Source: an uncultured bacterium (GTDB lineage Bacteria > Bacillota > Clostridia > Oscillospirales > Oscillospiraceae). Taken from it: DNA of 50,901 nucleotides. Below, piece by piece: positions 13,023 to 26,489 of this stretch. Made by a program: the position numbers and the translations under genes. The notes under the pieces were generated by a model, which saw only the letters and a program-made list of their open reading frames with translations, was not told where the DNA came from and made no database searches. The stretch covers positions 1 to 50,901 of the forward strand of contig CAMNQF010000025.1 of NCBI GenBank assembly GCA_946548895.1. Reading direction: 5' to 3'. Numbering within the stretch: position 1 is the first letter of the stretch; every line of letters starts with the position of its first letter.

Positions 13023-13027
13023 TCTGT

Positions 13028-13056: not shown

Positions 13057-13074
13057 CAGTTTTTTGTGAGATTT

Positions 13075-13115
13075 TTAAAAAAATTTTAGCCGGCCCCGCC
13101 TGATGCGGGGCCGGC
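13075..13115 (-). terminator. Terminator of the phage-like operon
   Basis: Perfect 11-bp GC-rich stem (13089-13099 with 13105-13115), then TAAAATTTTTTT on the minus strand. It is a canonical intrinsic terminator right after the last phage gene. Confidence 0.9.
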
Positions 13116-13123
13116 CGGGCCGG

Positions 13124-13717
13124 TCAGCCCTCGTCCTCAAAGCCGTCGTTCTCGATGGCCACGCCGTACCAGCTCAACCCTGTGGAGGCGGCGTCCCCCC
13201 AGGTGGGGTGGCGCTGGGCCACCATGCCCCAGGTGTTGTACCAGAACACATAGGTCACGTCCACGTGGCTGGGCAGTATGTCCTCAATGATGAGGCGGAG
13301 CCTGTCAAATCCCTCGGGGATGCCCGCCACATCGGGGAAATACACCTTCACGTATCCCGGCTGGCTCCCTTCCTCCGCCCGGGCGTTAAGGCCGCACCCC
13401 CGCAGGGTGTCGTTGATGGCGGAGGTGGTGAAGCTGTCCCCGTTGATGCGCAGCAGGGCGGCCAGGGCGGCCCGCCGCTGCCTCACCGTCTCGCACACCG
13501 GGCGGTAGGGCAGCAGCGCCTCCACCCGCTCCAGGCCGAAGTCCTCCGCCGTGACCAAGTTCATCTCCCGGGCGGTGTGGTCCAGCTCTTCCGCCGCCCC
13601 GTCCAGCTTCGCGCCATAGGCGGCCAGCTCCCCCCGGTTGACCGCGCCGGGCCGCAGGTCATAGGCCCCCAGCGGCTGGAGCAGGGAGACCAGGTAGTCC
13701 TCAAATTTCGGCGTCAC
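13124..13717 (-). CDS. Phage baseplate protein, gpI/YmfQ-like
   Basis: 197-aa protein resembling YmfQ/XkdU-type proteins (P2 gpI equivalents), which finish the baseplate wedge in contractile tails. Seen: the short N-terminal LVSLLQPLGAYDL, a helical middle with ERVEALLPYRPV and RRAALAALLRI, and the C-terminal DILPSHVDVTYVFW. It uses a GTG start overlapping the baseplate J stop (GTGA). It is the last gene of the operon; the tail-fibre gene normally found after gpI is absent. Confidence 0.8.
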   Translation of the reverse strand: MTPKFEDYLVSLLQPLGAYDLRPGAVNRGELAAYGAKLDGAAEELDHTAREMNLVTAEDFGLERVEALLPYRPVCETVRQRRAALAALLRINGDSFTTSAINDTLRGCGLNARAEEGSQPGYVKVYFPDVAGIPEGFDRLRLIIEDILPSHVDVTYVFWYNTWGMVAQRHPTWGDAASTGLSWYGVAIENDGFEDEG

Positions 13718-14808
13718 GCGCTCTCACCGCCGCTTTCCTCGGTCTGGGCGGGGACCCCGCCGTCCGCAATGACCAGCTCTCCCAGCACAGGCAAGGTCAC
13801 GCTGTCCAGGGGCAGGTCGGCCTCCGGGGCGGTGAGGCGGCAGTTGGCCACCCCGTCCACGGCGTAGATCAGCGACACCAGCTGGGCCCTTGGGAGGGGC
13901 TGGCCCAGCCGCTCCCCGTTGAACCAATCCTCCAGCCGGTCCCGCACGGCCCCGGCCACTTCGGCAAACTCCCGGCCCTCCTCCGCCCACAGCTGGACGG
14001 ACACGTTCACCGTCTGGGCCGTGGGCTTCAGCACCTTCACGTCGCACGCGATCTCCCGCACCCCGTCGAAGTAGTCCTGAAGCTCGTCAATCAGCTCCTC
14101 GCCGGGCACGCCGCCGGGGGCGGCGGGCACAATGTCCACCGTGCCCACTCCCCGGTTCCGGGGGAGCACTGTCACCGCCGCCACGCCGTTGAAGGACATG
14201 GCGGCCTGGCGGTAGAAGGCGGTGTTGGCGCCGTTGGCCAGCCGCCGGAAGGTAGCCAGCACCCGCGCCCGCAGGGCCTCGTCCTCCTCCTGGTCCTGCC
14301 CATTGGACAGGGGCTCCGGGTTGGCGCAGGCCACAATGCCCGTAGGGGGCAGGGCCATGTACACAATGGCGCCCTGGCCCACATTGCCCGCCGTTCCGGC
14401 CTCCGCCGCCGTCACAGGCAGCTCGCAGTACGGCTGGCCCGCCGGCACCACCCCGGCCGTATCGGTGAGGAACCGCACGCCTCCCGCGGTCATGCACACT
14501 GTCCCGGCGGGTACCTCGGTGTCGGTCTCCCGGGCCTCGTCCACATAAAACCGCACCGTCCCCACGGCGGGGACCGCCTTATGCCGGGACACGCCCCGCA
14601 GGGCGGCGTGCTTGTCCAAGTCCTCCCCCTGGGCCGTCTGGGGGAAGCACTGCCGCCGGGTCCACTCCGCCTGTACATACAGGCTGTACATCTGGGCGGC
14701 CACGGCATAGAACCGCACGGCCAGTTCGCTGCTGCCGCCGGCGGTCTGGCCCGTCCGGGCCTGAAAGTCCGAGGCCAGCCCCTGGTAAATTTCCTCCAAC
14801 GTAATCAA
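13714..14808 (-). CDS. Baseplate J-family protein (XkdT-like)
   Basis: 364-aa baseplate wedge protein of a contractile tail. Seen: N-terminal ITLEEIYQGLASDF, the typical GEDLDKHAALRGVSR stretch, AEAGTAGNVGQGAI, and the DEALRARVLATFRRLANGANTAFYRQ block that marks baseplate J/gp47-like proteins. The only sensible start is TTG at 14808, with GGAGGG seven bases upstream; the more 5' frame is a shadow of the preceding gene. Four-base overlap with the gpI-like gene. Confidence 0.9.
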   Translation of the reverse strand: MITLEEIYQGLASDFQARTGQTAGGSSELAVRFYAVAAQMYSLYVQAEWTRRQCFPQTAQGEDLDKHAALRGVSRHKAVPAVGTVRFYVDEARETDTEVPAGTVCMTAGGVRFLTDTAGVVPAGQPYCELPVTAAEAGTAGNVGQGAIVYMALPPTGIVACANPEPLSNGQDQEEDEALRARVLATFRRLANGANTAFYRQAAMSFNGVAAVTVLPRNRGVGTVDIVPAAPGGVPGEELIDELQDYFDGVREIACDVKVLKPTAQTVNVSVQLWAEEGREFAEVAGAVRDRLEDWFNGERLGQPLPRAQLVSLIYAVDGVANCRLTAPEADLPLDSVTLPVLGELVIADGGVPAQTEESGGESA

Positions 14809-14812
14809 ACTC

Positions 14813-15163
14813 TCATCCCTCCAACTGCACTGCCACCGGCAGCCGCGCCTCCTGCCACAGCAGCTCCACCGACACGGCCAGCACATCCCGTTCCCGCCGC
14901 ACCGCCGCGCCGGCCACTGTCACGCCGTCCAGGCCGGTCAGCGCCTCCACGGCGAATTGGCGGGCCAGGGCGTCCCAGGCGGAGGGCTTCTCCCGCCGGA
15001 GCTGGTAGATCCGGCTGCCCAGCTCCGGCAGGAAGGGGAAGCTCCCGCGCCGGGCGGTGAGGCGGAACAGGGCCTCGTTCACCAGGGCCTCTCCGTCCCG
15101 CACCACCGCCACGCCGCCGTTGCCGTCGGCCGTGTAATCCCTGTCTTTCAACAGCAGGCTCAT
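14813..15163 (-). CDS. Baseplate gp25/gpW-like protein (XkdS-like)
   Basis: 116-aa protein fitting the gp25-like lysozyme-fold (catalytically inactive) wedge family: DGNGGVAVVRDGEALVNEALFRLTARRGSFPFLPELGSRIY, where the conserved motif precedes a helix-strand C-terminus. The ATG at 15163 follows GGAGGG. Tightly spaced between the spike gene and baseplate J, as in P2, Mu and PBSX. Confidence 0.85.
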   Translation of the reverse strand: MSLLLKDRDYTADGNGGVAVVRDGEALVNEALFRLTARRGSFPFLPELGSRIYQLRREKPSAWDALARQFAVEALTGLDGVTVAGAAVRRERDVLAVSVELLWQEARLPVAVQLEG

Positions 15164-15181
15164 CTCAGTCCCTCCGTTTCT

Positions 15182-15604
15182 CTAACCCAGCCCCGCCAGG
15201 ATGGCGATCACAATCCTGGCGATCATATCCTCCAGCTTCTCGCCCCGGATATAGACCTCGCCCTTCAGGTTGATTTTGGGCGCTTCCAGGATGATTCCCG
15301 TCCCGCCCTGGATGTTCACCGCCGTACCCCCGGCGGTCAGCCGTTTGGCGCTGATGTCCACCTGGTCGGGCACGCTGCCGTCCTGGCGCAGGCCCACCAC
15401 GCAGGGGGTCTCCCCCTTACCCTGGATGACCAGCACCCGCTGGCCCACCTTGGGGGTCCAGCGGTAGCCCGCGGGCCCGTACAGCTGGAGGCCCCGCCGT
15501 TCACAGTCCAACATTACCGCCAGCTCGCCGCCGCTCATGGTGACGATGCCGGTCTGACCCTCTCCCGGGTCGGCGGGCTGTTTCTGCTGTCCGCTCAACC
15601 ACAT
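15182..15604 (-). CDS. Phage baseplate spike, gpV-like
   Basis: 140-aa protein with an N-terminal OB-like fold (GIVTMSGGELAVMLDCERRG, PKVGQRVLVIQGKGETPCVVGL), then short beta repeats (GGTAVNIQGGTGIILEAPKINLKG) as in the central spike of contractile tails. It ends in a hydrophobic helix (MIARIVIAILAGLG) rather than an iron-binding tip motif HxH, which I do not see. ATG at 15604 with AGGAGG. A family B repeat separates it from the hub gene. Confidence 0.8.
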   Translation of the reverse strand: MWLSGQQKQPADPGEGQTGIVTMSGGELAVMLDCERRGLQLYGPAGYRWTPKVGQRVLVIQGKGETPCVVGLRQDGSVPDQVDISAKRLTAGGTAVNIQGGTGIILEAPKINLKGEVYIRGEKLEDMIARIVIAILAGLG

Positions 15605-15611
15605 GATCGTA

Positions 15612-15702
15612 TCCTCCTATTGCCGCGTTCCGCGCTGCTCGCCACGGCTCCGCGCTTCCCTCTTGTCACGCTTCGCCTGCTCGCCACGGCTCCGCGCTTC
15701 TC
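15612..15702 (-). repeat. Intergenic repeat family B, copy 2 (short form, inside phage operon)
   Basis: Directly after the stop of the hub gene: TGAGAGAAGCGCGGAGCCGTGG (minus strand), then two copies of GAAGCGCGGAGCCGTGGCGAGC. The GCAAAA hairpin of longer copies is missing. Confidence 0.75.
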
Positions 15703-16656
15703 TCAAATCATCGCGTCCCTCTCGCCCAGCACCAGGGTGGTGGACAGCCCCTCGCCGCCGCAGGACACTTCGGTCTGGGCCGCCCGGTACACTCCATTTG
15801 CCCCGCAGTCTTTCAGCTCCACCGAAACCAGCTGGCCCGGCCAGGCCAAAAACGCCCCGGCGATGGTGGCGCGCATCCGCACCCGGCCGGACCGGGCCGC
15901 CTTCAGCTGGTATCCGGCGGTATAGCGCATGGCGGCGGTGCCTGTGGTGTTGGGCACGGTAACCACCCGCCGGGCGCAGCCGCCCTGGGCCAGGAAATCC
16001 GGGTCGGACACCCACTGGGTCCCCAGGGCGGTCCGCCGCCGCACGGCCACCTGACTGAGCACCCCGTGGCGCTCCTCCCGGTACTCCCAGCCGGTCACGG
16101 GGTCCCCCTCCCGGATGCGCAAAACCTCCCCGTCCCCGTGGGGGGCCAGCACCAGCCGTCCCTCCCGGTCGAACCGGGGGACCACGCCGCCGTAGTAGCA
16201 GGCGTACCGCCGCACCACGCTCCACTCGCTCTCCCCGCTGGACACGTTGAAGCCATCCACGGCGGGCAGGGCAGCGCCGCCCACCGCCTCCACGCCGTAG
16301 GGGGCCACATGGTTGGCGATAATGTCCGCCCGGGTGGCCCGCTGATACTCGGCGGGCATGGCCTCGTTGTCCAGCAGCAGGGCGGCCATCCCCCGGCCGG
16401 CCAGCTCCAGATACAGCCCGTCCTTTCCGCACCGCACGGCGTACTCGTCCACCACGCCGGTGAACACCCGCTCCCCCTCCCACTCGGCGAAAAAGCGGCA
16501 GGCGGCGGACAGCAGCGTCTCCTGTCCCCGCTCCCACAGGCACCGCAGGAAAAAGCTGTCGCAGGGGGTATCCGTGCCGTAGCAGAACCGCCAGCTGACG
16601 GCGGTGGGCAGGGTTAAAATACCGCCTCCGCCCAGCTTCACCCAACATTTTATCAT
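15703..16656 (-). CDS. Phage tail hub protein (XkdQ/gpD-like)
   Basis: 317-aa protein of the hub ring between tail tube and spike. Seen: N-terminal WRFCYGTDTPCDSFFLRCLW and GERVFTGVVDEYAV, typical of XkdQ/gp27-like proteins; ADIIANHVAPYGVEAV and SSGESEWSVVRRYACYYGGVVPRFDREGRL in the middle; C-terminal GRVRMRATIAGAFLAWPGQLVSVEL. The ATG at 16656 overlaps the stop of the LysM gene by four bases. Confidence 0.85.
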   Translation of the reverse strand: MIKCWVKLGGGGILTLPTAVSWRFCYGTDTPCDSFFLRCLWERGQETLLSAACRFFAEWEGERVFTGVVDEYAVRCGKDGLYLELAGRGMAALLLDNEAMPAEYQRATRADIIANHVAPYGVEAVGGAALPAVDGFNVSSGESEWSVVRRYACYYGGVVPRFDREGRLVLAPHGDGEVLRIREGDPVTGWEYREERHGVLSQVAVRRRTALGTQWVSDPDFLAQGGCARRVVTVPNTTGTAAMRYTAGYQLKAARSGRVRMRATIAGAFLAWPGQLVSVELKDCGANGVYRAAQTEVSCGGEGLSTTLVLGERDAMI

Positions 16657-17228
16657 TTGATTCTCACCCTCTGTCCCGCGTAGATGAGATTGGGATTTCG
16701 GATGGACGGGTTGAGCTCTATGATTCGGTTGAGCTCCACGCCATACCGCCGTGCCAGCTCCCACAGGGTATCCCCCCGGGTCACGGTGTGCCACTGGGCG
16801 TCTTCCTCCCCGGCCTCCTGGGGGGGAGCGCCGCCGGAGTTCAAGGGCCGGGCCGCCAGTTTGGTGTCTCCCGCGCCGTCCACCACCTCCCAAAACTCAA
16901 AGGAGTAGGCCACATAGTCCCGCCTGGGCTCCTGCCGCAGCTCCAGGGAGGCGAACCAGGCCGTGGTGGTCATCCACACCGGGTGGACCAGCACGCCGGG
17001 CGTCTCCTCGTAGAACACGGAAGCCAGCTCTTTGAAGGTGTCGTAGGCGTGTTCGCCCACAAACTCCCCCTCTCCCCGGAGCACCCGCCGGGTCTGTCCC
17101 AAGCTTTGGAGGTGGTAGCGGCCGAAGGGGATCTTCTGCACCGCGATTTTTCGGTCGTAGGCAATGGAATACACCCTGGGGTTGTGGGGCCACACAAAGC
17201 TTTTGAACCGCATAGGCGTAAGGATCAT
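16653..17228 (-). CDS. LysM-containing phage tail protein (XkdP-like)
   Basis: 191-aa protein. Residues 1-115 form an XkdP-type domain (SFVWPHNPRVYSIAYDRKIA...LGQTRRVLRGEGEFVGEHAYDTFKEL). A linker follows, then a LysM domain (about 145-190: HTVTRGDTLWELARRYGVELNRIIELNPSIRNPNLIYAGQRVRI) that would bind peptidoglycan. In PBSX this gene lies between the tape measure and hub, as here. The ATG at 17228 has GAGGGGAG ten bases upstream. Confidence 0.85.
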   Translation of the reverse strand: MILTPMRFKSFVWPHNPRVYSIAYDRKIAVQKIPFGRYHLQSLGQTRRVLRGEGEFVGEHAYDTFKELASVFYEETPGVLVHPVWMTTTAWFASLELRQEPRRDYVAYSFEFWEVVDGAGDTKLAARPLNSGGAPPQEAGEEDAQWHTVTRGDTLWELARRYGVELNRIIELNPSIRNPNLIYAGQRVRIK

Positions 17229-17244
17229 GTTTCCGTCACTCCCC

Positions 17245-17811
17245 TCAATAAATAGACATACCGCCGTCGTATCTCCTGCTGTCCCGCCGGACGGCCCGGT
17301 CCAGCTCGTCCACGGCCAGGGCGGCGGACCGCCCCGGTTCCTCCGCGGGCGGGATTCGCCCCGCCTGTTCCACGGGCAGGGCCAGGGCCGCCGCCGGGCT
17401 GGCGGCCTGGGCGGTCCGGCGGTACAGCTCCTCCAGCCCGCTTCCGGCCTCCTGGCGGGGAATCTCCGGGCCGCCGCCGTCCCGGCCCGCTGTCTCCAGC
17501 CGCCCGGCGGCCTCCGCCGCGGGGCGCGGGGCCAGGATGGCCCCTTCCAGCTCCTCCGCCAGCACCCGCCGCTCCAAAGCGCCGCCCCGCGGGGCGGCGG
17601 CAGCCTCCCTCGCCGCCCCGGGCCACAACTCCGGCCCTGGCGGGGGGCTTTGGCGGTCCCCAACTTCCGGCTCCGGCGGGTCCCGCTCCTCTCCGGCTTC
17701 CGGGGCGGCGCGGGCGGAGGGCTTGGCCCACTGGATCTCCAGCCCGTCCTCCCGCTCCTCCTCGTCCTCGGCCTCCATCAGGGCCAGCAACTCCTCCAGC
17801 CGGTCAACCAC
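17245..17811 (-). CDS. Unknown acidic/Ala-Pro-rich phage protein in tape-measure position
   Basis: 188-aa protein, not recognised. It starts MVDRLEELLALMEAEDEEEREDG, continues as low-complexity Ala/Pro/Glu/Arg-rich sequence, and ends LAVDELDRAVRRDSRRYDGG. It occupies the slot between the frameshifted tail chaperone and the LysM protein, where contractile-tail clusters normally encode a tape measure of many hundreds of residues. No long coiled coil or membrane segments are visible. The start is GTG at 17811, overlapping the frameshift product's stop by eight bases. The frame is biased to composition that long shadows also show, but no other frame fills the gap. Confidence 0.65.
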   Translation of the reverse strand: MVDRLEELLALMEAEDEEEREDGLEIQWAKPSARAAPEAGEERDPPEPEVGDRQSPPPGPELWPGAAREAAAAPRGGALERRVLAEELEGAILAPRPAAEAAGRLETAGRDGGGPEIPRQEAGSGLEELYRRTAQAASPAAALALPVEQAGRIPPAEEPGRSAALAVDELDRAVRRDSRRYDGGMSIY

Positions 17812-18426
17812 CGCCGCCGCCCCCCTTCAGCTCCTGGTACCGGACCCAGTCGAACCCGGCGTTGACGGACCAGCTCTCCCGGGGCGCGCCGCACACGGGG
17901 CAGGGCTCGGCCTCCGCCCTCTGGCGGCAGCCGGGGCACAGCCTCGCCAGCTCCTCCTCCTGATCCAGCGCCAGGTTGAGGGCGCACCACAGGTAATCCC
18001 GGTCGGTCATGCGTTTCGCCCGCTCCTCGGTGGGCAGAGCGCCGAACAGGCGGAGCACGCGCCACTGAAGGCGCTCATAATGCGCGTGCTCCAGGCTTTT
18101 TTTCGCCGGGCGGTCTCCTCTGCCCCGTCCAGTGGGGAGGGGTTGCAATCCCGGTTAAACGCCGCCCAGGCGTCGGCCAGGCGGGCGATATCCTCCACCC
18201 GCAGGGCGTCCAAAACCGCCTCCCCGCCGTCAAAAACGGGTTTTCCATGCCGTTCCAGCGCCCGGGCGACCAGGCAGGCGTTGCGGCACAGGGCCCGTTC
18301 CCTGCCCTCCTTGGCCAGGGCGTCCCCCTCCCGGCGGGCCTCCAGCACCTCCCGGGCGGACAGCAGCCGCAGCGCGCCCTCTCTCACCTTCACCCGGTCC
18401 GGCCCGTCCCAAAATTCGTTCCCCAT
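17804..18426 (-). CDS. Tail assembly chaperone, -1 frameshift product
   Basis: Predicted 207-aa long form made when ribosomes slip back one base at A7 (18097-18103). Residues 1-110 are shared with the short form. The next 97 come from the -1 frame (SLEHAHYERLQWRVLRLFGALP...), including YLWCALNLALDQEEELARLC and a CPGC...CPVC zinc-ribbon-like pair, ending in a Gly run. In the zero frame the site is CGA AAA AAA GCC, an A-AAA-AAA slippery heptamer. Long and short chaperone forms from slippage are the rule in tailed phages (lambda gpG/gpGT). The start of the -1 frame has no ribosome site of its own. Confidence 0.75.
18007..18426 (-). CDS. Tail assembly chaperone, short form (XkdN-like)
   Basis: 139-aa zero-frame product. 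Its N-terminal EFWDGPDRVKVREGALRLLSAREVLEARREGDALAKEG and ALCRNACLVARAL match the position and style of XkdN-type chaperones, which are needed to build the tail but are absent from the particle. The ATG at 18426 overlaps the tube gene's stop as TGATG; a GTG one codon earlier is possible. After the slippery site the zero frame runs only 29 codons. Confidence 0.75.
   Translation of the reverse strand: MGNEFWDGPDRVKVREGALRLLSAREVLEARREGDALAKEGRERALCRNACLVARALERHGKPVFDGGEAVLDALRVEDIARLADAWAAFNRDCNPSPLDGAEETARRKKAWSTRIMSAFSGACSACSALCPPRSGRNA
18097..18103 (-). promoter_or_regulatory. Programmed -1 frameshift (slippery) site
   Basis: Seven consecutive A on the minus strand, in frame as CGA-AAA-AAA-GCC. 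This is the same type as the E. coli dnaX slippery site. Slippage joins the short chaperone to the -1 frame ending at 17804. Confidence 0.75.
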
Positions 18427-18839
18427 CACACCGCCGTCTCCATCCGGCGGCCTGCCACCAGGGTGAGCTTTTCCACCACCATTTGGCCCAGCTGGGCGTC
18501 CTCCTCAATGCCGCTCCACTGGCAGTCGGAATAGATCACCTTGCGGTCCGGCTTGCAGATGACCAGGGAGAAATTTTTCATGCTGTAGAAGTCCAGCCCG
18601 TCGGCAATGGCCTGGTCGGTGGCGTACAGCCTGGTAAGCTGGATGACGTAGCTCTGGGGTCCCTGGACGGTGGCCACCGGCTCCTCCTCGCCGAAGGCCT
18701 CCACGGAATAGGAGCTCCGAGCGGTTTTGCAGTTGTAGCTCTGCACCACGGCCACCTTCTGGCCGTCCAGCTCCAGCCAGATATCGGAACTGGTGGGGAA
18801 GCCCGCCGCGCTGAGTCCGGCGTTAAAGTTTGCGCTCAT
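18426..18839 (-). CDS. Phage tail tube protein (XkdM-like)
   Basis: 137-aa inner-tube subunit. Seen: SADIWLEL-like beta strand DIWLELDGQKVAVVQSYNCKTARSSYSVEAFGEEEPVATVQGPQSYVIQLTRLY, the hallmark of XkdM-like tubes, then SLVICKPDRKVIYSDCQWSGIEEDAQLGQMVVEKLTLVAGRR. The ATG at 18839 follows AAGGAGG. Separated from the sheath gene by a family B repeat. Confidence 0.9.
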   Translation of the reverse strand: MSANFNAGLSAAGFPTSSDIWLELDGQKVAVVQSYNCKTARSSYSVEAFGEEEPVATVQGPQSYVIQLTRLYATDQAIADGLDFYSMKNFSLVICKPDRKVIYSDCQWSGIEEDAQLGQMVVEKLTLVAGRRMETAV

Positions 18840-18854
18840 TGTAGTTCCTCCTTG

Positions 18855-18989
18855 TATCCTGTATTCACGTCTCGCCTGCTCGCGACGCGCGGCTTCCCTC
18901 CGACTCAGGCAAAACCCAGTCCCGCTACGCGGGCCTTGGGCTTTTGCCTTCGCTTTGGTCCATCCGCGCTGCTCGCGACGGCTCGAACG
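18855..18989 (-). repeat. Intergenic repeat family B, copy 3 (inside phage operon)
   Basis: Begins within a few bases of the sheath stop codon and runs to just before the tube ribosome site. It includes the GCAAAA/TTTTGC hairpin at 18909-18947 with inner stem CCCAGTCCCGC/GCGGGCCTTGGG. Confidence 0.8.
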
Positions 18990-20024
18990 CTATACTGTAA
19001 TATGGGCGGACAGCCAGATCTGGTTGAGCCCGTGGGCCACGGTGAAGGCGAACTCCACCAGGCAGACGGTGGGGTCTGCGTCCAGGGCGGACACAGTCAC
19101 GTCCTCATAGCTGTCGATGATCTCCCGGCTGACCCGTTTTTCCAGCTCCATCACCGTGAGGGAGCGGATGGCGCCCCGGCTCTGGGCGGTGTTTTTGGCC
19201 CGGCTGAACCTGGCCCGCAGGGCGTTGCGGATGCCGGGGATCACCTCGTCCACCACCAGGATGGTGGTGAGCTCCCGCCAGGTGGCGTCCACCGCGCCGC
19301 CGGTTTTGGTCCGGGTGGTGATGCCGCGCACCACGTAACACGCCCCGGCCAGGGTCTCCAGGGGGGTCACGCCCCCCTGGACCAGCAGGTCGATGTCGCC
19401 GTCGGAGTAATTGCGCTCCAGTTCGCCCAGCCCGTAGAGCTGGGCACCCCCCAGGGGCAGGGCGGGGTCGGTCCCGCCGGCAATGGCCCCTGCCACGGCG
19501 GCGGCGCACAGGGCCCCGCCGGAGCTGCCCCCGGCGCCGGGTGCGGTGAGCACCACCCGCTCGCAGTTGAGCTGCCCGGCCCGCTGGACCAGCTGCTCCA
19601 CGGTCTCGTCCTGGGCGCCGCCCACCACGGCGATGCGCTCCCGCCGGGCGGCGGAGCATTCCTGCACCATGGCCTTCAGGGCCTGCTGTACGGACAGCGT
19701 ACTGCTGTCGCACACCACCACGCTCACGTTGTCCAGCGCCGCCACGGTGGCGAGCGCGGCCGTATAGTCCTGTCCGGCGGGCACGCCGTACACCACTCCC
19801 GCGCCGTTGCGGATGGCCAGCTGGGCCATGCGGCTGAGCAGGCAGTCGCCCACATCCGCCGCCGCCCGGCTGTAGCTGGTCCACTGATAACTCTTTTTTC
19901 CATCCGCGCCGTCCATGGCGGCGATCACCGCCACGCTGCCGCCTCCCGCGGCGGCGGCGGTGAGGCCGGACGCCTCGTAGGAGGAATACACCCCCGGTCG
20001 TTCATGCTTGGTTCCTGCGCTCAT
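18990..20024 (-). CDS. Contractile tail sheath protein (XkdK-like)
   Basis: 344-aa sheath subunit, which identifies the tail as contractile. Seen: N-terminal ERPGVYSSYEASG, the region SRAAADVGDCLLSRMAQLAIRNGAGVVYGVPA with the cofactor-like beta fold, and a C-terminal domain with VVRGITTRTK, WRELTTILVVDEV and the final strand CLVEFAFTVAHGLNQIWLSAHITV, which interlocks neighbouring subunits in this family. It is shorter than the PBSX sheath. ATG at 20024 with GAGGGAGG; overlaps the upstream gene by four bases. Confidence 0.9.
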   Translation of the reverse strand: MSAGTKHERPGVYSSYEASGLTAAAAGGGSVAVIAAMDGADGKKSYQWTSYSRAAADVGDCLLSRMAQLAIRNGAGVVYGVPAGQDYTAALATVAALDNVSVVVCDSSTLSVQQALKAMVQECSAARRERIAVVGGAQDETVEQLVQRAGQLNCERVVLTAPGAGGSSGGALCAAAVAGAIAGGTDPALPLGGAQLYGLGELERNYSDGDIDLLVQGGVTPLETLAGACYVVRGITTRTKTGGAVDATWRELTTILVVDEVIPGIRNALRARFSRAKNTAQSRGAIRSLTVMELEKRVSREIIDSYEDVTVSALDADPTVCLVEFAFTVAHGLNQIWLSAHITV

Positions 20025-20524
20025 GTTATCCTCCCTCTCACTTCAAATTCCGCGAAGGTCCCGGCCTCCCCGTCCGTCCGGGCGACGAGCCAGGCCCTGC
20101 ACCGGCAGCTCACGGTCTGGCGGTACAGTCCCTCCTTTTCCAGGAACTCCACCCGGCCCGCCTGAACCTCCAGGACGGGCAGCCCTGCCGCGCCCTGGCA
20201 CAGCAGGGCCTCCGCGGCGGTCTCCGCCGCCCGCTGGCAGGCGTCCCCGCCCCCGTCCCTGGGGGCGAAGATGTCCAGCGTCAGGGTGAGTTCCGCCTCC
20301 CTGCCGTAAGTCTCCCGTTCCCGCCCGGTCTCCGGGTCCTTCCAAACGCCCAGGTAATCCTTAAACCCGCCGGGGGCGCACGTCATGCCGCTGAGGGACA
20401 CCGCCGCCGCGGCCTCCCGCCAGCGGCGGGCCGGGGCGCAGTCCATAGCGGCCACGGCGCTGAGGCCGTTTTGGCGCAGCTGATCCGCCAGCCGCTCCCG
20501 CAGGGCGTTCAGCGCCCCGCTCAC
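20021..20524 (-). CDS. Phage tail terminator-like protein
   Basis: 167-aa protein directly before the sheath, the usual place of the tail terminator/completion protein (XkdJ or gpU-like). Seen: N-terminal SGALNALRERLADQLRQNGLSAVAAMD, a strand-rich middle (ELTLTLDIFAPRDGG), and a helix (CQRAAETAAEALL) followed by VEFLEKEGLYRQTVSCRCRAWLVART. The GTG at 20524 overlaps the upstream stop (GTGA). Function is assigned mainly by position. Confidence 0.6.
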   Translation of the reverse strand: MSGALNALRERLADQLRQNGLSAVAAMDCAPARRWREAAAAVSLSGMTCAPGGFKDYLGVWKDPETGRERETYGREAELTLTLDIFAPRDGGGDACQRAAETAAEALLCQGAAGLPVLEVQAGRVEFLEKEGLYRQTVSCRCRAWLVARTDGEAGTFAEFEVRGRIT

Positions 20525-20856
20525 GGCGCGTTCTCCGGGCAGGGCCGCAGGGCCAGCCACAGGTGGGTGACCTGCCCGCCCACCCAGATGGGCCGCACAG
20601 TCATCACCTCATACCGCTCTCCGCCCCACTCCAGCCAGCCGCCGGGCCCGGTCTTGTCCAGGGGGAGGCCGGGCTCGGCCAGCCCCAGGAACCGGTCCTG
20701 GGAAAAACTGCCCAGCGCCCCGGCGGTGTACTGCCAGTCCGCCTTGGTCATGGGCTGCACGATGGCCATGCCCCGGCCGGCCTCGGCACCGTCCTCTTTC
20801 CGGCACACCATCTCCTGCCCGTAGGCCTTGATGACCCACTCAAACGCCTCGATCAA
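20521..20856 (-). CDS. Phage head-tail connector (stopper)-like protein
   Basis: 111-aa protein between the adaptor and tail terminator genes. Beta-rich: WQYTAGALGSFSQDRFLGLAEPGLPLDKTGPGGWLEWGGERYEVMTVRPIWVGGQVTHLWLALRP, like small stopper proteins (SPP1 gp16 or XkdI-like). It overlaps both neighbours by four bases. Assignment rests on fold impression and synteny. Confidence 0.6.
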   Translation of the reverse strand: MIEAFEWVIKAYGQEMVCRKEDGAEAGRGMAIVQPMTKADWQYTAGALGSFSQDRFLGLAEPGLPLDKTGPGGWLEWGGERYEVMTVRPIWVGGQVTHLWLALRPCPENAP

Positions 20857-21209
20857 CCGCTCACCCCCTGAAACACAAACGAGTTATCCCGCAGATAGGG
20901 CCTCATCAGCTCCATGGCCTGGCGGGACAGTTTTTCCGCGCCGTCCCCGCTTCCCGGCTCCCGGCGGACAGAGATATCCCCCGCCGACAGGGCCGTGACG
21001 CCCTCCAGGCCCTGGCCGCCCCGCAGCCAGTCCATGGCCAGCCACGCCGCCGCCAGGGGGTATGCCCCCTGGCAGTCCCCGGGGGCCAGGCCGTCCTTCA
21101 GCTTTTGGTCCAGCATCCGGCAGGCGGCGGCGCACACCGCCTCCAGCAGGGCCTCGCTCTGTCCCGCGCCGCCCAGCGCCTGGACCAGCTCCATCACCTG
21201 TTCCAGCAT
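20853..21209 (-). CDS. Phage head-tail adaptor-like protein
   Basis: 118-aa mostly helical protein (LLEAVCAAACRMLDQKLKDGLAPGDC, YPLAAAWLAMDWLRGGQG), then GDISVRREPGSGDGAEKLSRQAMELMRPYLRDNSFVFQGV. This is the pattern of gp6/gp15-like adaptors that sit under the portal. ATG at 21209 with AGGAGGG. It follows the protease gene by ten bases. Confidence 0.65.
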   Translation of the reverse strand: MLEQVMELVQALGGAGQSEALLEAVCAAACRMLDQKLKDGLAPGDCQGAYPLAAAWLAMDWLRGGQGLEGVTALSAGDISVRREPGSGDGAEKLSRQAMELMRPYLRDNSFVFQGVSG

Positions 21210-21219
21210 ATCCGCCCTC

Positions 21220-22092
21220 CTAGATCAGGAAGGCCCCGTGGTTGGCTTCCCTGGGGGGCTCGTCCTGTTCATAGTTCAGCTGAACGCCGGGGGTCAGCAG
21301 GCGGTCCGCCTTGTCCCGGTACAGTTTGATGAGCCCCAGCAGCTCCTCCTCCTCCAGCCGGCCCGCCACCCTTTCCAGCAGGGCGCGGTCCGCGGACCGC
21401 TCGGCGATGCCGGCCAGGCACACCAGCTCCCGCCGCAGGCTTTTGAGGTACTTCCGGCCCAGCCGGGCCTCGTCCGCCAGCCGCCCAGCGCTCTTGACCA
21501 CGCCGGACCTGCGCTGGGCGGGCACGGCCACAAAGGACCACTCGTACACGTCGGAGGCCCCGGTGAGCACACCGCAGCACAGCTGGCCGCCGTATTCCTC
21601 CCCCTTCTCGTGGGCGCAGGACCCCAGCGGCTGGCCGCAGACGGAGCACAGCACCTGGTCCACGGCGCAGCCCACGCTGACCTCCCGCTTGATACCGCCG
21701 TCGATCTCGGCGATGAGGGCGGCGTTTTCGGGGGTGCGCATCATGTAGGCCCAGCCTTTGAGCCAGCGGCAGGGCCGCCCGTCCCGGGTGAGGGAGCCGT
21801 CTCCGCCCACCACCTGGGTACGGTAAATGCGGGCGGCCTGTCCTTTGGCGGACCACTGGTGGTCGAACACGCCGGACACCCCCACGAACAGGGGGGCCAG
21901 CTGGTCCAGCGTGCCGTCGTCGAACCGCTCGAAATCCCGGTCAATGTCGTTGTCGCACAGGCGGAGGGCAAAGGTGTACACCTCGTCCGCCCCCAGCTCC
22001 CGCCGGGCCAGGGCGTTGATGAGGGCCAGCTCCTCCCCGCCGGGGGTTCCGATGCCTTTGACCCGCGCGTCCTTATTGATTTCCATGTTCAT
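21220..22092 (-). CDS. Phage prohead protease-like protein (XkdF-like)
   Basis: 290-aa protein fitting XkdF/U35-like prohead proteases that mature capsids. Seen: VYTFALRLCDNDIDRDFERFDDGTLDQLAPLF (first strands), GVFDHQWSAKGQAARIYRT (candidate catalytic His), EIDGGIKREVSVGCAV (candidate Ser), a CSVCGQPLGSCAH insert with three cysteines and a histidine that may bind zinc, and YEWSFVAVPAQRRSGV. A helical C-terminus (about 190-290) could act as scaffold. It overlaps the portal gene by 20 bp. ATG at 22092 with GGAGGAGA. Confidence 0.7.
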   Translation of the reverse strand: MNMEINKDARVKGIGTPGGEELALINALARRELGADEVYTFALRLCDNDIDRDFERFDDGTLDQLAPLFVGVSGVFDHQWSAKGQAARIYRTQVVGGDGSLTRDGRPCRWLKGWAYMMRTPENAALIAEIDGGIKREVSVGCAVDQVLCSVCGQPLGSCAHEKGEEYGGQLCCGVLTGASDVYEWSFVAVPAQRRSGVVKSAGRLADEARLGRKYLKSLRRELVCLAGIAERSADRALLERVAGRLEEEELLGLIKLYRDKADRLLTPGVQLNYEQDEPPREANHGAFLI

Positions 22093-23221
22093 TCTCCTCC
22101 TCCATGGCCCTGGCCTGGGCCCGGTACAGCGCCGCCCTGGCCTCCGACTCCTCGTCCTGAAGGTTCACGTCCAGCCAATCCACGGTTACCCGGCTGTCGA
22201 AGCCCCTCAGCCGCAGCCACAGCTCGCACACCCGCTCCACCACCGGCTCCAGGCTCCGCCGGATGGCGGAAATTTCGCTGGTCATGATGTCGGCCTGCTG
22301 GCTGCTCATCCGCTCGGTGGACGACCAGCTCAGGCCCAGCAGGAAGGGGGGGATGCCAGTCTTGGCCACCAGCTGCTCCAGGATCTGCCGGACGGGCACC
22401 TCGCTGTCCAGGATCTGGTTGTCCGCGCCGATGGTGCGGATCTCCACATCCCCGGCGGCCACGAAATCCCGGACGGCGCCGTCCCGGCCGGCCTGCATGG
22501 CGGCGGACCACTCCCGCGCCACCTGGGCGCACCGCTCCTGGGGGTCGCCGCCGTCTCCGTCCCGGCAAACCACGGCGAAGCGCACGTTGCCCATCCGCTC
22601 CCAGTTTTTTCCGACTGCCTGGAAGATTTTCACGAAAATTTCCGCCAGGAAGGGCATGGACCGCAGCATGGACACCCCATAGGGGGCGCAGGTCTCCGGC
22701 TGGAAGGGGGTGAACAGCAGCAGCTCCTGGCGGGGCAGCTCCCGCACCGCGCCGCCGCTGTCCCGGGCGCACAGGGTGAAGTCCAGGGGGCTGGCCCCCT
22801 CTTTGATCTCCACCCGGCTCACGTCGGCGCACAGCAGGGCGGCGATGTCCCGGCCGTCCCGGGTGGGGACGATCTCGCCCACCGCCCGGCCGCACACCAG
22901 CATGGAGTCCAGGTACTGGTCCAGGAAGGCCTGAACGCCCCGCTGCCCCCGCCCCACGGGGACGGTGCGGAGGAAGCGGTCCAGCTCCTCCTGGGCGTCC
23001 CGGTCCCGGCAGGCGACCTTCAGCCCGCCGCACAGCCGCACCAGTTTACAGATAGCGGCGTCCACTACGGGCACGGCCTCCCGGACGGCCCGGTAGAGGG
23101 CGGTTTCCCCGTTGTGGAGGGGCACGTACCCGTCCATCTGGACGAAGGGGTGCCGCCCCTCATCCCGGAGCTGGGCGGCGGCCGCCGCCCGCCCCGTTTT
23201 TTTCCGCTTGTCCCCGATCAT
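22073..23221 (-). CDS. Phage portal protein
   Basis: 382-aa portal subunit, the ring through which DNA enters the capsid. Seen: N-terminal ALYRAVREAVPVVDAAICKLVRLCGGLKV, then LLFTPFQPETCAPYGVSMLRSMPFLAEIF (the usual P-Y-G-S motif), LEQLVAKTGIPPFLLGLSWSSTERMSSQQADIMTSEI and a C-terminal helical wing. TGATG overlap with the capsid stop. It lies after, not before, the capsid gene. Confidence 0.88.
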   Translation of the reverse strand: MIGDKRKKTGRAAAAAQLRDEGRHPFVQMDGYVPLHNGETALYRAVREAVPVVDAAICKLVRLCGGLKVACRDRDAQEELDRFLRTVPVGRGQRGVQAFLDQYLDSMLVCGRAVGEIVPTRDGRDIAALLCADVSRVEIKEGASPLDFTLCARDSGGAVRELPRQELLLFTPFQPETCAPYGVSMLRSMPFLAEIFVKIFQAVGKNWERMGNVRFAVVCRDGDGGDPQERCAQVAREWSAAMQAGRDGAVRDFVAAGDVEIRTIGADNQILDSEVPVRQILEQLVAKTGIPPFLLGLSWSSTERMSSQQADIMTSEISAIRRSLEPVVERVCELWLRLRGFDSRVTVDWLDVNLQDEESEARAALYRAQARAMEEENEHGNQ

Positions 23222-24231
23222 CAGACGGAGAGTACCCGGCTGGCGTCCTCAAAGATTTTGGCGTAGCCGGAGATGGTGGTGATGGCGGCCCGCTCCAGCT
23301 GGCGGTCGATGATCTTGTCGTACTCCACCATCACGTCGCCGGCCTTGACCATCTCCAGGGCGTAGTTTTTGTCCAGGCCGAGGATTTTGCCGGCGGGCAC
23401 GGCGGAGGAGCGCAGCACCTTGGCGCCCATGGGGGTGATGAGCCTGCCGGTGCCGTGGAAATCCAGGCCGGCCATGGCGTCCTGCATCTGGCTGAGGCCC
23501 AGCAGCTTGGGCATGGTGTCGGTGCCCACCAACAGGGTGTTGAGCTGGTAGGGCTCGAAGCTGTTCCAGAAGGCCAGCAGGTCGCTGTAGGCCAGCGTTC
23601 CGGCGGTTTTCACGCTGGTGCTCTTGGCGGCGTTGCCGTTGCCGTCGCCGTTGATGATGACGTCGATGGCGTCCTCCAGGTGCATCCGGCCGATCTGGGC
23701 GCCGATCTGCCGCAGGGTGACGGAGAACAGGTCCAGCTTCTGGAACCGAATGGCCTCGTAGGAGGCCACCAGCATCCGGCCCCGCTTGTGGAGCTTCACC
23801 AGGCTGTCCCTGGTGCGCACGGTGGTCTGGGGGATGGCGGCGCCCTCGGCCACCTGCTTGAGCTTCTTCTCATCCTCGGGCACGGAGGTGATGGAGCGGT
23901 AATCCATCCCCTGGATGAGGGTTTCGGTGGCGGTGATGTCGGGGAGGATGTTGGCCTCCTCCATGCCCACCTTCACGGCCCGGGCGATGTACTCGGGGAA
24001 GAGCACCGCCGACTGGGAGGTGGAGAAAAACTTATCCACCAGGTCGGAGCCCGCGCCCTTCACCCGGATGTCGAAGCGCTTCAGCTGCCGCTGATAGGCG
24101 TCCAGCCCCTCCAGGGCGGTGCCGCGGTACTGCTCGCTGGGGTCCAGCTTTTCCAGAACCTGGGTGAAGGACTTGCCGGCCTCGTGGTACATCCCTTTTT
24201 CCAGCTTGACGTTGTCGAATCTCTGCGCCAT
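23221..24231 (-). CDS. Major capsid protein (HK97-fold)
   Basis: 336-aa shell protein. Seen: helical N-terminus with FTQVLEKLDPSEQYRGTALEGLDAYQRQLKRFDI, PEYIARAVKVGMEEANILPDITATETLIQGMDYRSI, the region AEGAAIPQTTVRTRDSLVKLHKRGRMLVASYEAIRF (E-loop/P-domain-like), MHLEDAIDVIINGDG, and the A-domain MGAKVLRSSAVPAGKILGLDKNYALEM. This layout resembles XkdG-type capsids. ATG at 24231 with a good AGGAGG site. Confidence 0.88.
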   Translation of the reverse strand: MAQRFDNVKLEKGMYHEAGKSFTQVLEKLDPSEQYRGTALEGLDAYQRQLKRFDIRVKGAGSDLVDKFFSTSQSAVLFPEYIARAVKVGMEEANILPDITATETLIQGMDYRSITSVPEDEKKLKQVAEGAAIPQTTVRTRDSLVKLHKRGRMLVASYEAIRFQKLDLFSVTLRQIGAQIGRMHLEDAIDVIINGDGNGNAAKSTSVKTAGTLAYSDLLAFWNSFEPYQLNTLLVGTDTMPKLLGLSQMQDAMAGLDFHGTGRLITPMGAKVLRSSAVPAGKILGLDKNYALEMVKAGDVMVEYDKIIDRQLERAAITTISGYAKIFEDASRVLSV

Positions 24232-24252
24232 ATTCCCTCTCCTCCTTCTCTT

Positions 24253-24606
24253 TTACAGCTTGATGACGGCGGTTTTGGCCGTGGTGTCCACCGCCAGCAC
24301 CAGGCACTGGAGCCCGCCGGTGGTGACGGTTTTGACGCCGCCCTCGCCGTCGCAGGCCAGGGCCTTCCAGCCCACGGCCGGGGCGGTGCCGCTGTAGCCC
24401 ACCGTGGCCACGCCGCCGATCTGGACCGCCGCCGCGCCGCCCCGCACGCCGCCCAGCACCACGCCGCAGGGCAGGGCGTCGGCGGCGCCCTTGCTCACGG
24501 TGCCGTTTTTGGTGAGGGCCACCGCCATGCCGGGCTGCACCTCGCCCTCCACCTGGAAGGTGGCGGCCGTCTGGCCCACGCCCTCGAAACAGATGTCCAT
24601 GTTCAT
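24253..24606 (-). CDS. Phage head decoration-like protein
   Basis: 117-aa beta-rich protein (TFQVEGEVQPGMAVALTKNGTVSKGAADALPCGVVLGGVRGGAAAVQIGGVATVGYSG), as in DUF2190-type capsid decoration proteins. It lies just upstream of the capsid gene, which supports this. ATG at 24606 with AGAGGAGA. Confidence 0.7.
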   Translation of the reverse strand: MNMDICFEGVGQTAATFQVEGEVQPGMAVALTKNGTVSKGAADALPCGVVLGGVRGGAAAVQIGGVATVGYSGTAPAVGWKALACDGEGGVKTVTTGGLQCLVLAVDTTAKTAVIKL

Positions 24607-24639
24607 TCTCCTCTCATTGATAAGGTATCTATGGAAACC

Positions 24640-24831
24640 CCCTGTTCAGGGGTATTCCCCCACACTCCCCCTGCCGGGGGCGTTACTTTCTGCTCGTGCA
24701 GAAAGTAACCAAAGACACGCTGCCCTCTATTTGTGCTGCCGCTTGTGTCTGGTCCTTGCGGCTGTATGCGGTCCGCGCCCCGCGCCTGAGCTTGCGCACC
24801 GTCCGCGCCGGGGCCGGAGTGCCCGCGCTCC
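24640..24831 (+). repeat. Intergenic repeat family A, copy 3 (short, inside phage operon)
   Basis: Contains CCCCCTGCCGGGGG and the first hairpin GTTACTTTCTGC-TCGT-GCAGAAAGTAAC (24682-24709), then CCAAAGACACGC and the GCTGCCGCTTGTGTC tail. The second and third hairpins of full copies are missing. It fills the only sizeable gap between terL and the head genes and is oriented against them. Confidence 0.8.
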
Positions 24832-26067
24832 CTAAAACGCCTGCCGCTCCACAAACCGGGCGGTATACCCATTTCCGCCATCCAGCGCCATCACGAAATA
24901 GCGGATATCGTCCATGGCGTGGTCGTGCTCCTTCCGCACCCGGTCCATGGCCCGGTCGTCCTCCCAGCGGTACAGCTCAAACTCCCGGGCCGCCGCCCCG
25001 CACTCCCGGCAGATGACGATTTTCCCGGATTTCAGCGCCTCCGCCGTCCGGCGGATGCCCTCCAGCACCCGGTTGTCCGCCTTGCGGACGGTCCAGCCCG
25101 CCCGGCGCAGCGCCTCAATAAAGCTGGCCGCCGACGGGTCCACAATAACCGTCTCAATCTCCCGCCCCGCCGCCAGACAGTCCAGCTCCCGGACATACTC
25201 CCCGTCGGTTTTCTGCCGTCCCTGGGCCCGTGCGTCGTAGTAGTATTCGCGGACCCTGTACCACACCCCGTCCAGCTCGCCCCACAGGCCGAAGGAGGCG
25301 GGGTTCCGGGTTCCGTAGTCGCAGGAAACCCGCCACCGGCGGAAGGGCCCTTCCGGGGCCGCGGGCATCTGGTCCCGGCGGAAGAAGTCGTACACCAGCC
25401 CTTCGGCGGCGGTCCACTCGCCCAGCACATACCGCCGGTAGAAGGTTCCCTGGAACAACCTCGCATACCGCGCCCTGGTCTGGGGGGACAGCCTGGGGTT
25501 GTCCTCCATGGTAAAGCGCAGGTACAGCGCTCGTTTCTCCTCCGCTTTTTGGATCCACTCCCGATAGAACCAGTGCTCCGAACCGGCGGGGTTGCAGGAG
25601 AACCAAAGCTTTCCGCCCTCCACAGAGCATCGGGCGGCGGCCTGCTCCACGAAGGAGCGCGGCATGAGCGCGGCCTCGTCCAGCAGCACCCCCGCCAGGG
25701 TAGCCCCCTGGATAGCGGCGGCGCTGCCCTCGTCCCGCCCGCCGTAGAGGTAGAATCGGTTTTCCCGGCCCCCGCCCCGGAGGGCCACCTCATTGCGGCT
25801 GACCTTTTCCTCCCATTGGAAGCCCAGCCCTTCCAGCACGGGGCGGGCCTGGGCCAGGAGGTTCCGCCGCACGCCGTTGACGGACCCGGCGCACAGGCCG
25901 AAGCGCTGCCGGTGGAAGCGGGCCATAGCCCACAGGAGGAAGGAGAGGGTGAGGGCGAAGGTTTTGCCCGACCGCACCGCGCCGTCGCAGATGACGGCGT
26001 CATAGCGCTCCTCCCTCCACCAGTCCAGGACCTGGCGCTGTTTGGGGGAAAAGCGGAGCTCTTTCAC
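24832..26067 (-). CDS. Phage terminase large subunit (PBSX/XtmB type)
   Basis: 411-aa packaging motor. Seen: ATPase Walker A G-A-V-R-S-G-K-T (residues 29-36), Walker B VLLDEAAL with D130-E131, the coupling motif FSCNP, and a C-terminal nuclease domain with VSCDYGTRNPASFGLWG (first acidic residue), TVIVDPSAASFIEAL (second) and DHAMDDIRYFVMAL (third). All catalytic positions appear kept. The start overlaps the small subunit stop by four bases. Confidence 0.92.
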   Translation of the reverse strand: MKELRFSPKQRQVLDWWREERYDAVICDGAVRSGKTFALTLSFLLWAMARFHRQRFGLCAGSVNGVRRNLLAQARPVLEGLGFQWEEKVSRNEVALRGGGRENRFYLYGGRDEGSAAAIQGATLAGVLLDEAALMPRSFVEQAAARCSVEGGKLWFSCNPAGSEHWFYREWIQKAEEKRALYLRFTMEDNPRLSPQTRARYARLFQGTFYRRYVLGEWTAAEGLVYDFFRRDQMPAAPEGPFRRWRVSCDYGTRNPASFGLWGELDGVWYRVREYYYDARAQGRQKTDGEYVRELDCLAAGREIETVIVDPSAASFIEALRRAGWTVRKADNRVLEGIRRTAEALKSGKIVICRECGAAAREFELYRWEDDRAMDRVRKEHDHAMDDIRYFVMALDGGNGYTARFVERQAF

Positions 26068-26384
26068 GCCTCACCGCCGCCTGTCTCCCGTCCCAGGCCG
26101 TTCAGGAAGTCCTCCAGCGCTCCGTCCCGCCGCTCCTCCATCAGTTCCCGGAGCATAGCCAGCACCCGCAGCTTGTCCACAAATTTGACCTCGAAGGCGC
26201 CGTTGGCGTTTCGCTTCAGCTCGGCCACCCCGGCGAGGTCCAGCCTGTCCACCTGCCCGGCATCCTCCGGCCCCAGCAGGGACAGCTTCACCACGTCGTT
26301 GCTCTTCCATCGGATCAGCTTGCGCAGATAAGCCGTCAGCTGCCGGCGGATTTTCTGCTCCTCGGTTTTTTCCTGCGTCTCCAT
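26064..26384 (-). CDS. Phage terminase small subunit-like protein, short
   Basis: 106-aa protein opening the phage operon. The C-terminal part, DRLDLAGVAELKRNANGAFEVKFVDKLRVLAMLRELM, matches the tail of Terminase_2/XtmA proteins. The helix-turn-helix DNA-recognition domain that normally precedes it (about 60-80 residues) is absent. Start ATG at 26384 with GGAGG eight bases before; the upstream in-frame extension is composed of the terminator region and is not credible. Loss of the DNA-binding part suggests loss of specific pac/cos recognition. Confidence 0.7.
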   Translation of the reverse strand: METQEKTEEQKIRRQLTAYLRKLIRWKSNDVVKLSLLGPEDAGQVDRLDLAGVAELKRNANGAFEVKFVDKLRVLAMLRELMEERRDGALEDFLNGLGRETGGGEA

Positions 26385-26452
26385 TCCAAACCTCCTCACG
26401 GTCCGCCGCCGAAACACCCGTTTTGTTGCCTGTCCCGGTGCAAGGCGCAAAA

Positions 26453-26483: not shown

Positions 26484-26489
26484 CGGCGC

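Follow-up and report, generated by a model that had tools for sequence, protein, structure and literature searches.

The DNA considered here, referred to as the window, is a stretch of 50,901 nucleotides (positions 1 to 50,901 of contig CAMNQF010000025.1, assembly GCA_946548895.1) from an uncultured bacterium of the Oscillospiraceae. On its minus strand, from 26384 down to 13124, an operon with contractile-tail genes runs intact from terminase to gpI. A preliminary description of this region had reported a compact contractile-phage operon of 17 genes, none of them disrupted in frame and many overlapping by 4 bp. Matches to Pfam and PHROG families confirmed that the operon at 13124–26384 is real and intact, and all of its reading frames were found to be unbroken; however, the recount gave 19 genes, together with one probable −1 frameshift product. 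The claim of many 4 bp overlaps holds for six of the 18 junctions, four more having overlaps of 1–40 bp, one of which depends on the start assumed for gpJ. The features are given below from rlmH to mreB; several of the gene names were assigned by position or from matches below the cut-off.

26535–27017, minus: rlmH, host flank before the operon (PF02590, 2e-54)
26453–26483, minus: terminator between rlmH and terS, perfect 13-bp stem and T-run
26415–26443 (approximate bounds), minus: conserved leader motif TTGCACC..GGCAACAAA upstream of terS
26064–26384, minus: terS, small terminase, 106 residues, C-terminal part only (no Pfam match for the reading frame or its upstream extension; N-terminal helix-turn-helix not detected)
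24832–26067, minus: terL, large terminase, catalytic motifs retained (PF03237, 8e-19; PF04466, 4e-7; phrog_2; alignment A4)
24253–24606, minus: capsid decoration/virion structural protein (phrog_4588, 3e-20)
23221–24231, minus: major capsid protein (PF25209, 1e-16; phrog_3922, 1e-111)
22073–23221, minus: portal protein (phrog_30703, 6e-163; PF04860, 2e-8, below cut-off)
21220–22092, minus: phrog_16951 protein, perhaps a prohead protease (phrog_16951, 1e-102; alignment A7)
20853–21209, minus: probable neck (adaptor) protein (by position, same place in relatives; no family match)
20521–20856, minus: probable neck (stopper) protein (by position, as in relatives; phrog_939 only at E 0.07)
20021–20560, minus: probable tail terminator (by position; phrog_25177, 2e-25, no function assigned)
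18990–20024, minus: contractile tail sheath (PF17482, 5e-12; PF04984, 5e-11; phrog_279, 3e-40)
18426–18839, minus: tail tube protein (position after sheath; phrog_27038, 3e-55, no function assigned)
18007–18429, minus: tail assembly chaperone G (by position; A7 slippery run; no family match)
17804–18148, minus: frameshift extension (T part) of the chaperone, CxxC..CxxC motif (probable −1 frameshift product)
17245–17811, minus: short protein in tape-measure position, 188 residues, RRDSRRYDGG C-terminus (alignment of 22 genus sequences)
16653–17228, minus: LysM tail protein (PF01476, 2e-15; PF07157, 3e-5)
15703–16656, minus: baseplate hub, gp44-like (PF22255, 7e-7; phrog_177, 1e-36)
15182–15604, minus: central spike-like protein (phrog_25991, 3e-13, no function assigned; PF21930, 6e-4, below cut-off)
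14813–15163, minus: gp25/GP46-like baseplate wedge, sheath initiator (PF07409, 9e-4, below cut-off; phrog_975, 2e-4)
13714–14811, minus: baseplate J (PF04865, 5e-54; start codon not fixed, 5' end probably overlapping the preceding gene)
13124–13717, minus: gpI/Mu gp48-like baseplate protein (phrog_521, 3e-18; PF10076, 1e-4, below cut-off)
13088–13116, minus: terminator after gpI, 12-bp stem and T-run
11420–12451, minus: mreB, host flank after the operon (PF06723, 3e-139)

In what follows, G000 denotes the genome of the window, L numbers denote fetched loci, f1 is the Oscillospiraceae and f19 and f20 are the other two carrier families, of which f20 is presumably the Ruminococcaceae, since it holds the genus matched by a Faecalibacterium probe. 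The catalytic motifs of the large terminase (TerL) had been described as kept, and this proved correct: Walker A (GAVRSGKT) and Walker B (LLDEA) are present, and D250, D310 and D386, which we take to be nuclease residues, are invariant across 23 aligned sequences. TerL is up to 48.6% identical to that of Lactobacillus-type phages in the phages collection, a likeness suggesting that the ancestor of the operon was probably an ordinary tailed phage. The operon is matched by phrog_30703, 16951, 27038, 25177 and 25991, of which only 30703 (portal) carries a function in that database; such proteins had therefore already been recorded from phages. In the phrog_16951 protein (21220–22092) H78, S139 and a C/H cluster are all invariant (alignment A7), and the structure model is good [predicted local distance difference test (pLDDT) score 85]. 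The model gave no PDB match at E ≤ 0.001 and the sequence search nothing below E 0.2, so that the term protease is still a guess. The LysM protein is XkdP-like.

In the chaperone gene, an A7 slippery run leads by a −1 shift into a second open reading frame (ORF), and the run has the same position in 24/24 genus loci among those listed. The absence of a gene of normal tape-measure size, as first reported, stands in so far as the protein in this slot has only 188 residues; however, the slot is occupied, by an ORF with a conserved C-terminus. The motif RRDSRRYDGG ends all 22 aligned proteins from the genus (three partial sequences omitted), and an ORF (median 192 residues) lies in the same slot in 61 of the 64 loci that have sheath, tube and LysM genes, although the ORF picked is in the wrong frame in some of them (for example L021, L062, L067, L073, L093 and L309). 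At 1.5 Å per residue, 188 residues place a ceiling of 28 nm on the length of the tail.

Sheath and tube were not found by profile in several related lineages, with at least six state changes on a tree of 87 loci. Baseplate genes remain in five of these reduced elements (L290, L292, L296, L299 and L300), and L302–L306 retain the head genes and only the hub. Because the state of the tail was judged from profile matches, genes counted as lost may in some cases have diverged instead, and parsimony counts, for the tail as for the small terminase below, give no direction of change. In L302, a reduced f20 element, an apparent extracytoplasmic function (ECF) sigma factor gene and a gene for a 646-residue protein were seen by eye directly after the element, about 3.3–5.8 kb after the start of the capsid gene.

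The operon had been described as lacking integrase and repressor genes, and none was found in it or among 20 other window genes (not all of those present), which gave no Pfam match to an integrase, phage repressor or endolysin family; nor do the 20 flanking genes scanned include integration or replication genes. No exact repeat of at least 16 bp, as expected of att sites, occurs between 26351–26700 and the searched stretches, and a few 14-mers are repeated between the rlmH end of the operon and these stretches. Upstream of terS, TTGCACC, a spacer and GGCAACAAA are common to many genus loci, between the rlmH terminator and terS, and several other family members have a dyad resembling GTTGCACG-N-CGTGCAAC followed by T residues. 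This leader pattern was counted in 22/27, 14/39 and 8/19 cases against control means of 0.6, 0.8 and 1.7, the counts being descriptive because the pattern was drawn up after the sequences had been viewed; an earlier pattern gave 16/27 in the genus and 0/39 and 0/19 elsewhere. The motif may be an operator or an attenuator. Control of the Caulobacter gene-transfer agent (GTA) reportedly involves activation and antitermination. The SOS box GAACNNNNGTTC was not enriched (13 matches against 15.3 expected).

The reported lack of lysis and fibre genes holds for the operon in the window but not for all relatives. An endolysin gene follows gpI in four family loci (L072, L076, L096 and L098), two of which also have a holin gene, and a small fibre-like gene directly follows gpI in eight of the 19 loci of f19 and f20. 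Co-inherited lysis genes had been named as a sign of an ordinary or decaying prophage; such genes stand beside the cluster in some relatives, and no conserved partner was found in the genus. An unlinked lysis operon like that of FpGTA II, a system considered below, was rejected as a candidate, the CHAP-type endolysin of L072 having weak matches in the genome of the window (best E 7e-10). A holin-like and endolysin-like pair lies among host genes in G025 (L352, 5258–6219); it is patchy, with matches in 11/26 genus genomes at E ≤ 1e-10, that in G000, one of the 11, being no more than partial. A search for an unlinked fibre gave a weak match (G000:C48, E 5e-4). Elsewhere in the same genome, L353 (G000:C90) contains, by eye, ligase, racemase-like, carboxypeptidase-like and two-component genes resembling a van-type cluster.

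All presence counts reported here include incomplete genomes. The portal was found in 31 of the 42 genomes of the genus, full-length matches outside G000 being 73–92% identical. Capsid and TerL are both present in 29 genus loci, of which 24 keep all 11 scored genes and the other five are cut by contig ends; three further genus loci, whose contigs lack one of the two genes, were left unscored. The capsid profile detected the element in 171/399 family genomes (35 of 72 genera), with one match per genome in all 171 and no stops among the matches listed. A sample of the order gave 123 positives among 396 genomes, all in three families (f1 38/75, f19 60/74 and f20 25/72; none in the others), and a sample of the class gave 10/293, three of the ten lying outside the order with much weaker scores. 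Among the best 80 of 579 confirmed matches, carriers include Oscillibacter valericigenes Sjm18-20, Flavonifractor, Pseudoflavonifractor, Intestinimonas and Dysosmobacter. The gene order in the window is decoration, capsid, portal, phrog_16951, compared with portal, phrog_16951, decoration, capsid in most of 39 loci from other genera of the family. Such conservation of the predicted operon across the order excludes chance. A second, diverged terS–terL–portal piece (L049, G034:C123:1-5727; 35–61% identity) was seen in one genus genome with 7% contamination and is presumably either a duplicate or a contaminant.

The position of the operon between rlmH and mreB, with a terminator on either side, was confirmed in the window, the terminators being hairpins with T-runs at 26453–26483 and 13088–13116; a consensus terminator scan did not list the former. 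A comparison of this neighbourhood in related genomes, as had been suggested, showed the mreB side of the genus to be stable but not the rlmH side. mreB follows gpI by 0.6–1.5 kb in 20/21 testable loci (three further loci being too short). In the loci where rlmH does not precede terS other genes are found, which indicates that the left flank has been rearranged; by eye, the genes before the operon are housekeeping-like, being helicase-like in L035–L038 and enolase-like in L023. In the 39 loci from other family genera, rlmH and mreB did not lie within the fetched stretch. Genus members without the element were also found: in L345, L346, L348 and L349 rlmH and mreB are 593–861 bp apart, L344 has a transporter-like gene in a gap of 2.5 kb, and no mreB was seen in L347. 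In a tree of the flanks, L344 groups with the carriers L039 and L041 (support 47), and L344–L346, L348 and L349 nest with the same carriers (support 92). The element-less members are thus not one outgroup, which suggests losses.

Inheritance was examined by comparing the distances of four element proteins with those of a host marker, NFACT, which was found by search and obtained from 29 of 30 genomes (G138 was dropped). The distance between NFACT and the element is about 20 kb in G000, G396 and G643; in the other genomes NFACT is farther away or on another contig. The two sets of distances correlate across the 29 genomes (r = 0.906, a value reached in 0/5000 permutations), as they do within the family (r = 0.893) and when one genus member is used (r = 0.807, 19 genomes), and the element is slightly less diverged than the marker (mean distance 0.413 against 0.479). 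Element and host trees share 16 of 26 bipartitions, compared with a mean of 0.16 and a maximum of three after shuffling of labels. In the 87-locus tree the genus and two families are monophyletic, and the third family is broken by L309 (G556:C64), an f20 element that stands outside its own family and may reflect transfer between families. As far as the compared sequences reach, the agreement of distances and trees across the three families demonstrates vertical inheritance. The preliminary description had taken a patchy distribution with att sites as a mark of an ordinary prophage; the element follows the host trees, and no att repeat was found in the stretches searched.

Selection was assessed as the ratio of nonsynonymous to synonymous substitution rates (dN/dS), calculated by the Nei–Gojobori method for seven pairs, some of which share members. 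The proposed calculation gave a ratio below 1 for every element gene computed (range 0.02–0.78), with 0.02–0.30 for the capsid, 0.08–0.32 for TerL, 0.10–0.24 for the portal, 0.14–0.48 for the sheath and 0.45–0.68 for the tape-measure-slot protein; the highest value, 0.78, belongs to the decoration protein. Because high GC content biases this method, only the direction of the ratios is claimed. Selection for a role in the host, as originally suggested, is supported by inheritance with the host, purifying selection and the single capsid match per positive family genome.

The small terminase (TerS) is informative for the nature of this role. Terminase_2 (PF03592) matches TerS in the relatives L072, L084, L295 and L308; the TerS of the window, even with its upstream extension, has no Pfam match, and a helix-turn-helix (HTH) was not detected at its N-terminus. 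An HTH model built from 13 sequences picked by eye, which match by construction, found the domain in 17 of 87 loci overall: 0/29 in the genus, 6/39 in other family loci, 2/8 in f19 and 9/11 in f20, with at least eight changes on the 87-locus tree. According to the available text of a 2024 review, the TerS proteins of known GTAs all lack the N-terminal DNA-binding part (PMC11841831), with which the absence of the HTH from the genus agrees. The preliminary description had left the choice between a GTA-like and a PBSX-like particle open; the missing DNA-binding domain favours the former without proving it.

Intact head, packaging and tail genes, a single copy, linkage to mreB, co-inheritance with the host, purifying selection and a TerS without HTH together favour a GTA-type particle. 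It appears fairly likely that the operon encodes a domesticated, vertically inherited, phage-derived particle of this type with a very short contractile tail, and it has probably been retained for packaging and carrying DNA of the host itself. The cluster has the properties expected of a GTA in that it is phage-derived, resides on the host chromosome, is inherited vertically and retains intact genes for structure and packaging that are under purifying selection; the TerS of the window likewise lacks the DNA-binding domain, which is present in 17 of the 87 wider loci. The marks of a temperate prophage were not found: integrase and repressor in the cluster and the 20 flanking genes scanned, att sites in the stretches searched, and inheritance independent of the host in the trees. 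In such a particle, TerL and TerS would fill a small capsid with DNA of the host chromosome, irrespective of its sequence, and the neck proteins would attach a stub tail, the length of which would be set or limited by the 188-residue protein encoded between the chaperone and LysM genes. Hub, spike and wedge would form the baseplate, particles would leave through lysis of some cells by enzymes encoded elsewhere, and contraction of the sheath would push the tube, together with DNA, into a relative. For random packaging of host DNA here, the packaging published for Oscillospiraceae is only suggestive (PMC12946183, here and below as far as its accessible text goes).

Several observations weigh against this interpretation. 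The particle, its packaged DNA and the transfer are predicted from the genes. Most of the 188-residue protein is modelled as disordered (mean pLDDT 56), which would not be expected of a tape measure shaped like a rod, so that 28 nm is a ceiling for the tail and not a measurement. There is no linked lysis or receptor-binding gene in the window, and no conserved unlinked one was found. The HTH is retained by some relatives (9/11 in f20) and has thus not been lost everywhere. The host tree lacks four element clades that have support of at least 95, and a few transfers or tree errors therefore remain. The capsid is absent from 228/399 family genomes, which means that losses must be common, and two capsid matches occur in 3/123 positives of the order sample, two of the three being partial. 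rlmH lies within 0.8 kb before terS in only 13/24 testable genus loci (four further loci being too short), the left flank being rearranged in many. Finally, in three of the four pairs for which mreB was computed, this host gene is under tighter constraint than the majority of the element genes.

Related systems have been described. GTA-like packaging has been measured in Ruminococcaceae, Oscillospiraceae and Christensenellaceae, and FpGTA was found in Faecalibacterium; an Oscillospiraceae metagenome-assembled genome (Onthomonas) was searched and no operon is reported in the accessible text (PMC12946183, 2026). Like FpGTA I and II, the present element comes from gut bacteria of the same order and combines a host-encoded head and terminase operon with a TerS lacking an obvious DNA-binding domain and with no replication genes (PMC12946183). 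In contrast to the operon in the window, FpGTA is described as podovirus-like, with ten ORFs in 10.5 kb (PMC12946183). FpGTA particles have been shown to measure 40 nm and to contain about 9 kb of DNA (PMC12946183). The Rhodobacter capsulatus GTA (RcGTA) shares with it a host-encoded particle cluster and a short tape measure (PMC7296036) and a TerS without DNA-binding domain (PMC11841831). The RcGTA tape measure is described as 113+83+20 residues and its tail as 49 nm; unlike the contractile tail here, compared by description, the RcGTA tail has no sheath, and its host belongs to the Alphaproteobacteria (PMC7296036, as far as available). A literature search by title and abstract opening, with preprints and most subscription journals outside its coverage, found no other paper on such an element in these families.

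Identity with FpGTA was considered and, on the present data, rejected. The genus g138 is taken to be Faecalibacterium, as a 16S probe matches G700, one of its seven genomes. None of the seven has a TerL match at E ≤ 0.1 or is among the 123 capsid matches, although the filter could miss very diverged homologues. The window element therefore seems to be different from FpGTA.

The best surviving alternative, which we nevertheless regard as unlikely, is a PBSX-like killing particle that packages host DNA without delivering it, its short contractile tail killing relatives. PBSX of Bacillus subtilis is chromosomal, has a contractile tail and packages host DNA; its tape measure is long and lysis genes are linked to it. 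The order of its LysM and hub genes is, by description, similar to that of the window operon. The tail of the present element is likewise contractile and host-encoded. However, a protein of 188 residues is no counterpart of the long PBSX tape measure, and no lysis genes are linked to the cluster. Furthermore, terminase, portal and capsid are constrained and persist in relatives from which sheath and tube are missing, whereas a tailocin would show the reverse. For FpGTA, the authors themselves keep such a reading open in the accessible text (PMC12946183).

Distinctly less probable is that the capsid is kept for another use, for example as a compartment, either empty or filled with DNA, that lysis sets free, with a vestigial tail. 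The repeated absence of sheath and tube, with its six or more state changes, and the reduction of L302–L306 to head genes and hub would suit this view, but the scored genes are all kept in the uncut genus loci and the tail genes have dN/dS below 1. A contractile device for protein injection that no longer packages DNA is slightly less probable still: sheath, tube, hub, spike-like and wedge genes are present, but the cluster has no cargo-like gene and TerL keeps its catalytic motifs without variation across the 23 aligned sequences. The least credible explanation is an ordinary or decaying prophage, or repeated infection by one phage group, since the absence of the element from over half of the family genomes, the varying left flank in the genus and the 291 relatives recorded as phage contigs in viral_contigs are set against a single capsid match per family genome without stops among the matches listed, the lack of integrase among 20 flanking genes and of an att repeat in the stretches searched, the congruence of element and host trees, purifying selection and the absence from the phages collection of any isolated phage with a capsid more than 28% identical (five closer records being unannotated faecal contigs).

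The surroundings of the operon showed further features. mreB has a promoter-like site of its own, and an AT-richer stretch at 12500–13090, between the operon and mreB, has a 12-bp inverted repeat at 12725–12759 and no Rfam match. The other neighbours in the window, besides rlmH and mreB, are a Mur ligase, a metallo-beta-lactamase-fold protein, an EPSP-synthase-family gene (murA by resemblance) and an HSP90 gene. A 30-bp hairpin, GGTTACTTTCTGCACGAGCAGAAAGTAACG, occurs with paired changes at 24681–24710, 31694–31723 and 33178–33207, one copy lying in a gap of the operon; it looks like a dispersed element of the repetitive extragenic palindromic (REP) type. At 38158–39800, an ECF sigma factor is followed by a 361-residue protein without Pfam match, possibly an anti-sigma pair.

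As a predicted set of phage genes the operon is ordinary; it is unusual in being ancient, present as a single copy and under selection, in having spread by descent through three families and in its stub contractile tail. More tentatively, and with somewhat less than even confidence, it could represent the ancestral GTA of the order, which would predate the split of Oscillospiraceae, Ruminococcaceae and a third family and would at first have had a DNA-specific TerS as well as a contractile tail. It would have been domesticated in parallel, losing the DNA-recognition domain several times and having its tail shortened or removed several times, and it would be the source of the GTA-like packaged DNA measured in Oscillospiraceae and non-Faecalibacterium Ruminococcaceae. 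Comparison of its members, which form a natural series, allows individual steps of phage domestication to be followed (DNA recognition lost, a short tape measure, the sheath lost), and capsid and portal provide markers for searching published virome and proteome data. As three gut-rich families carry the operon in 123 of their 221 sampled genomes, GTA-mediated exchange of genes would become accessible to tests on cultured strains.

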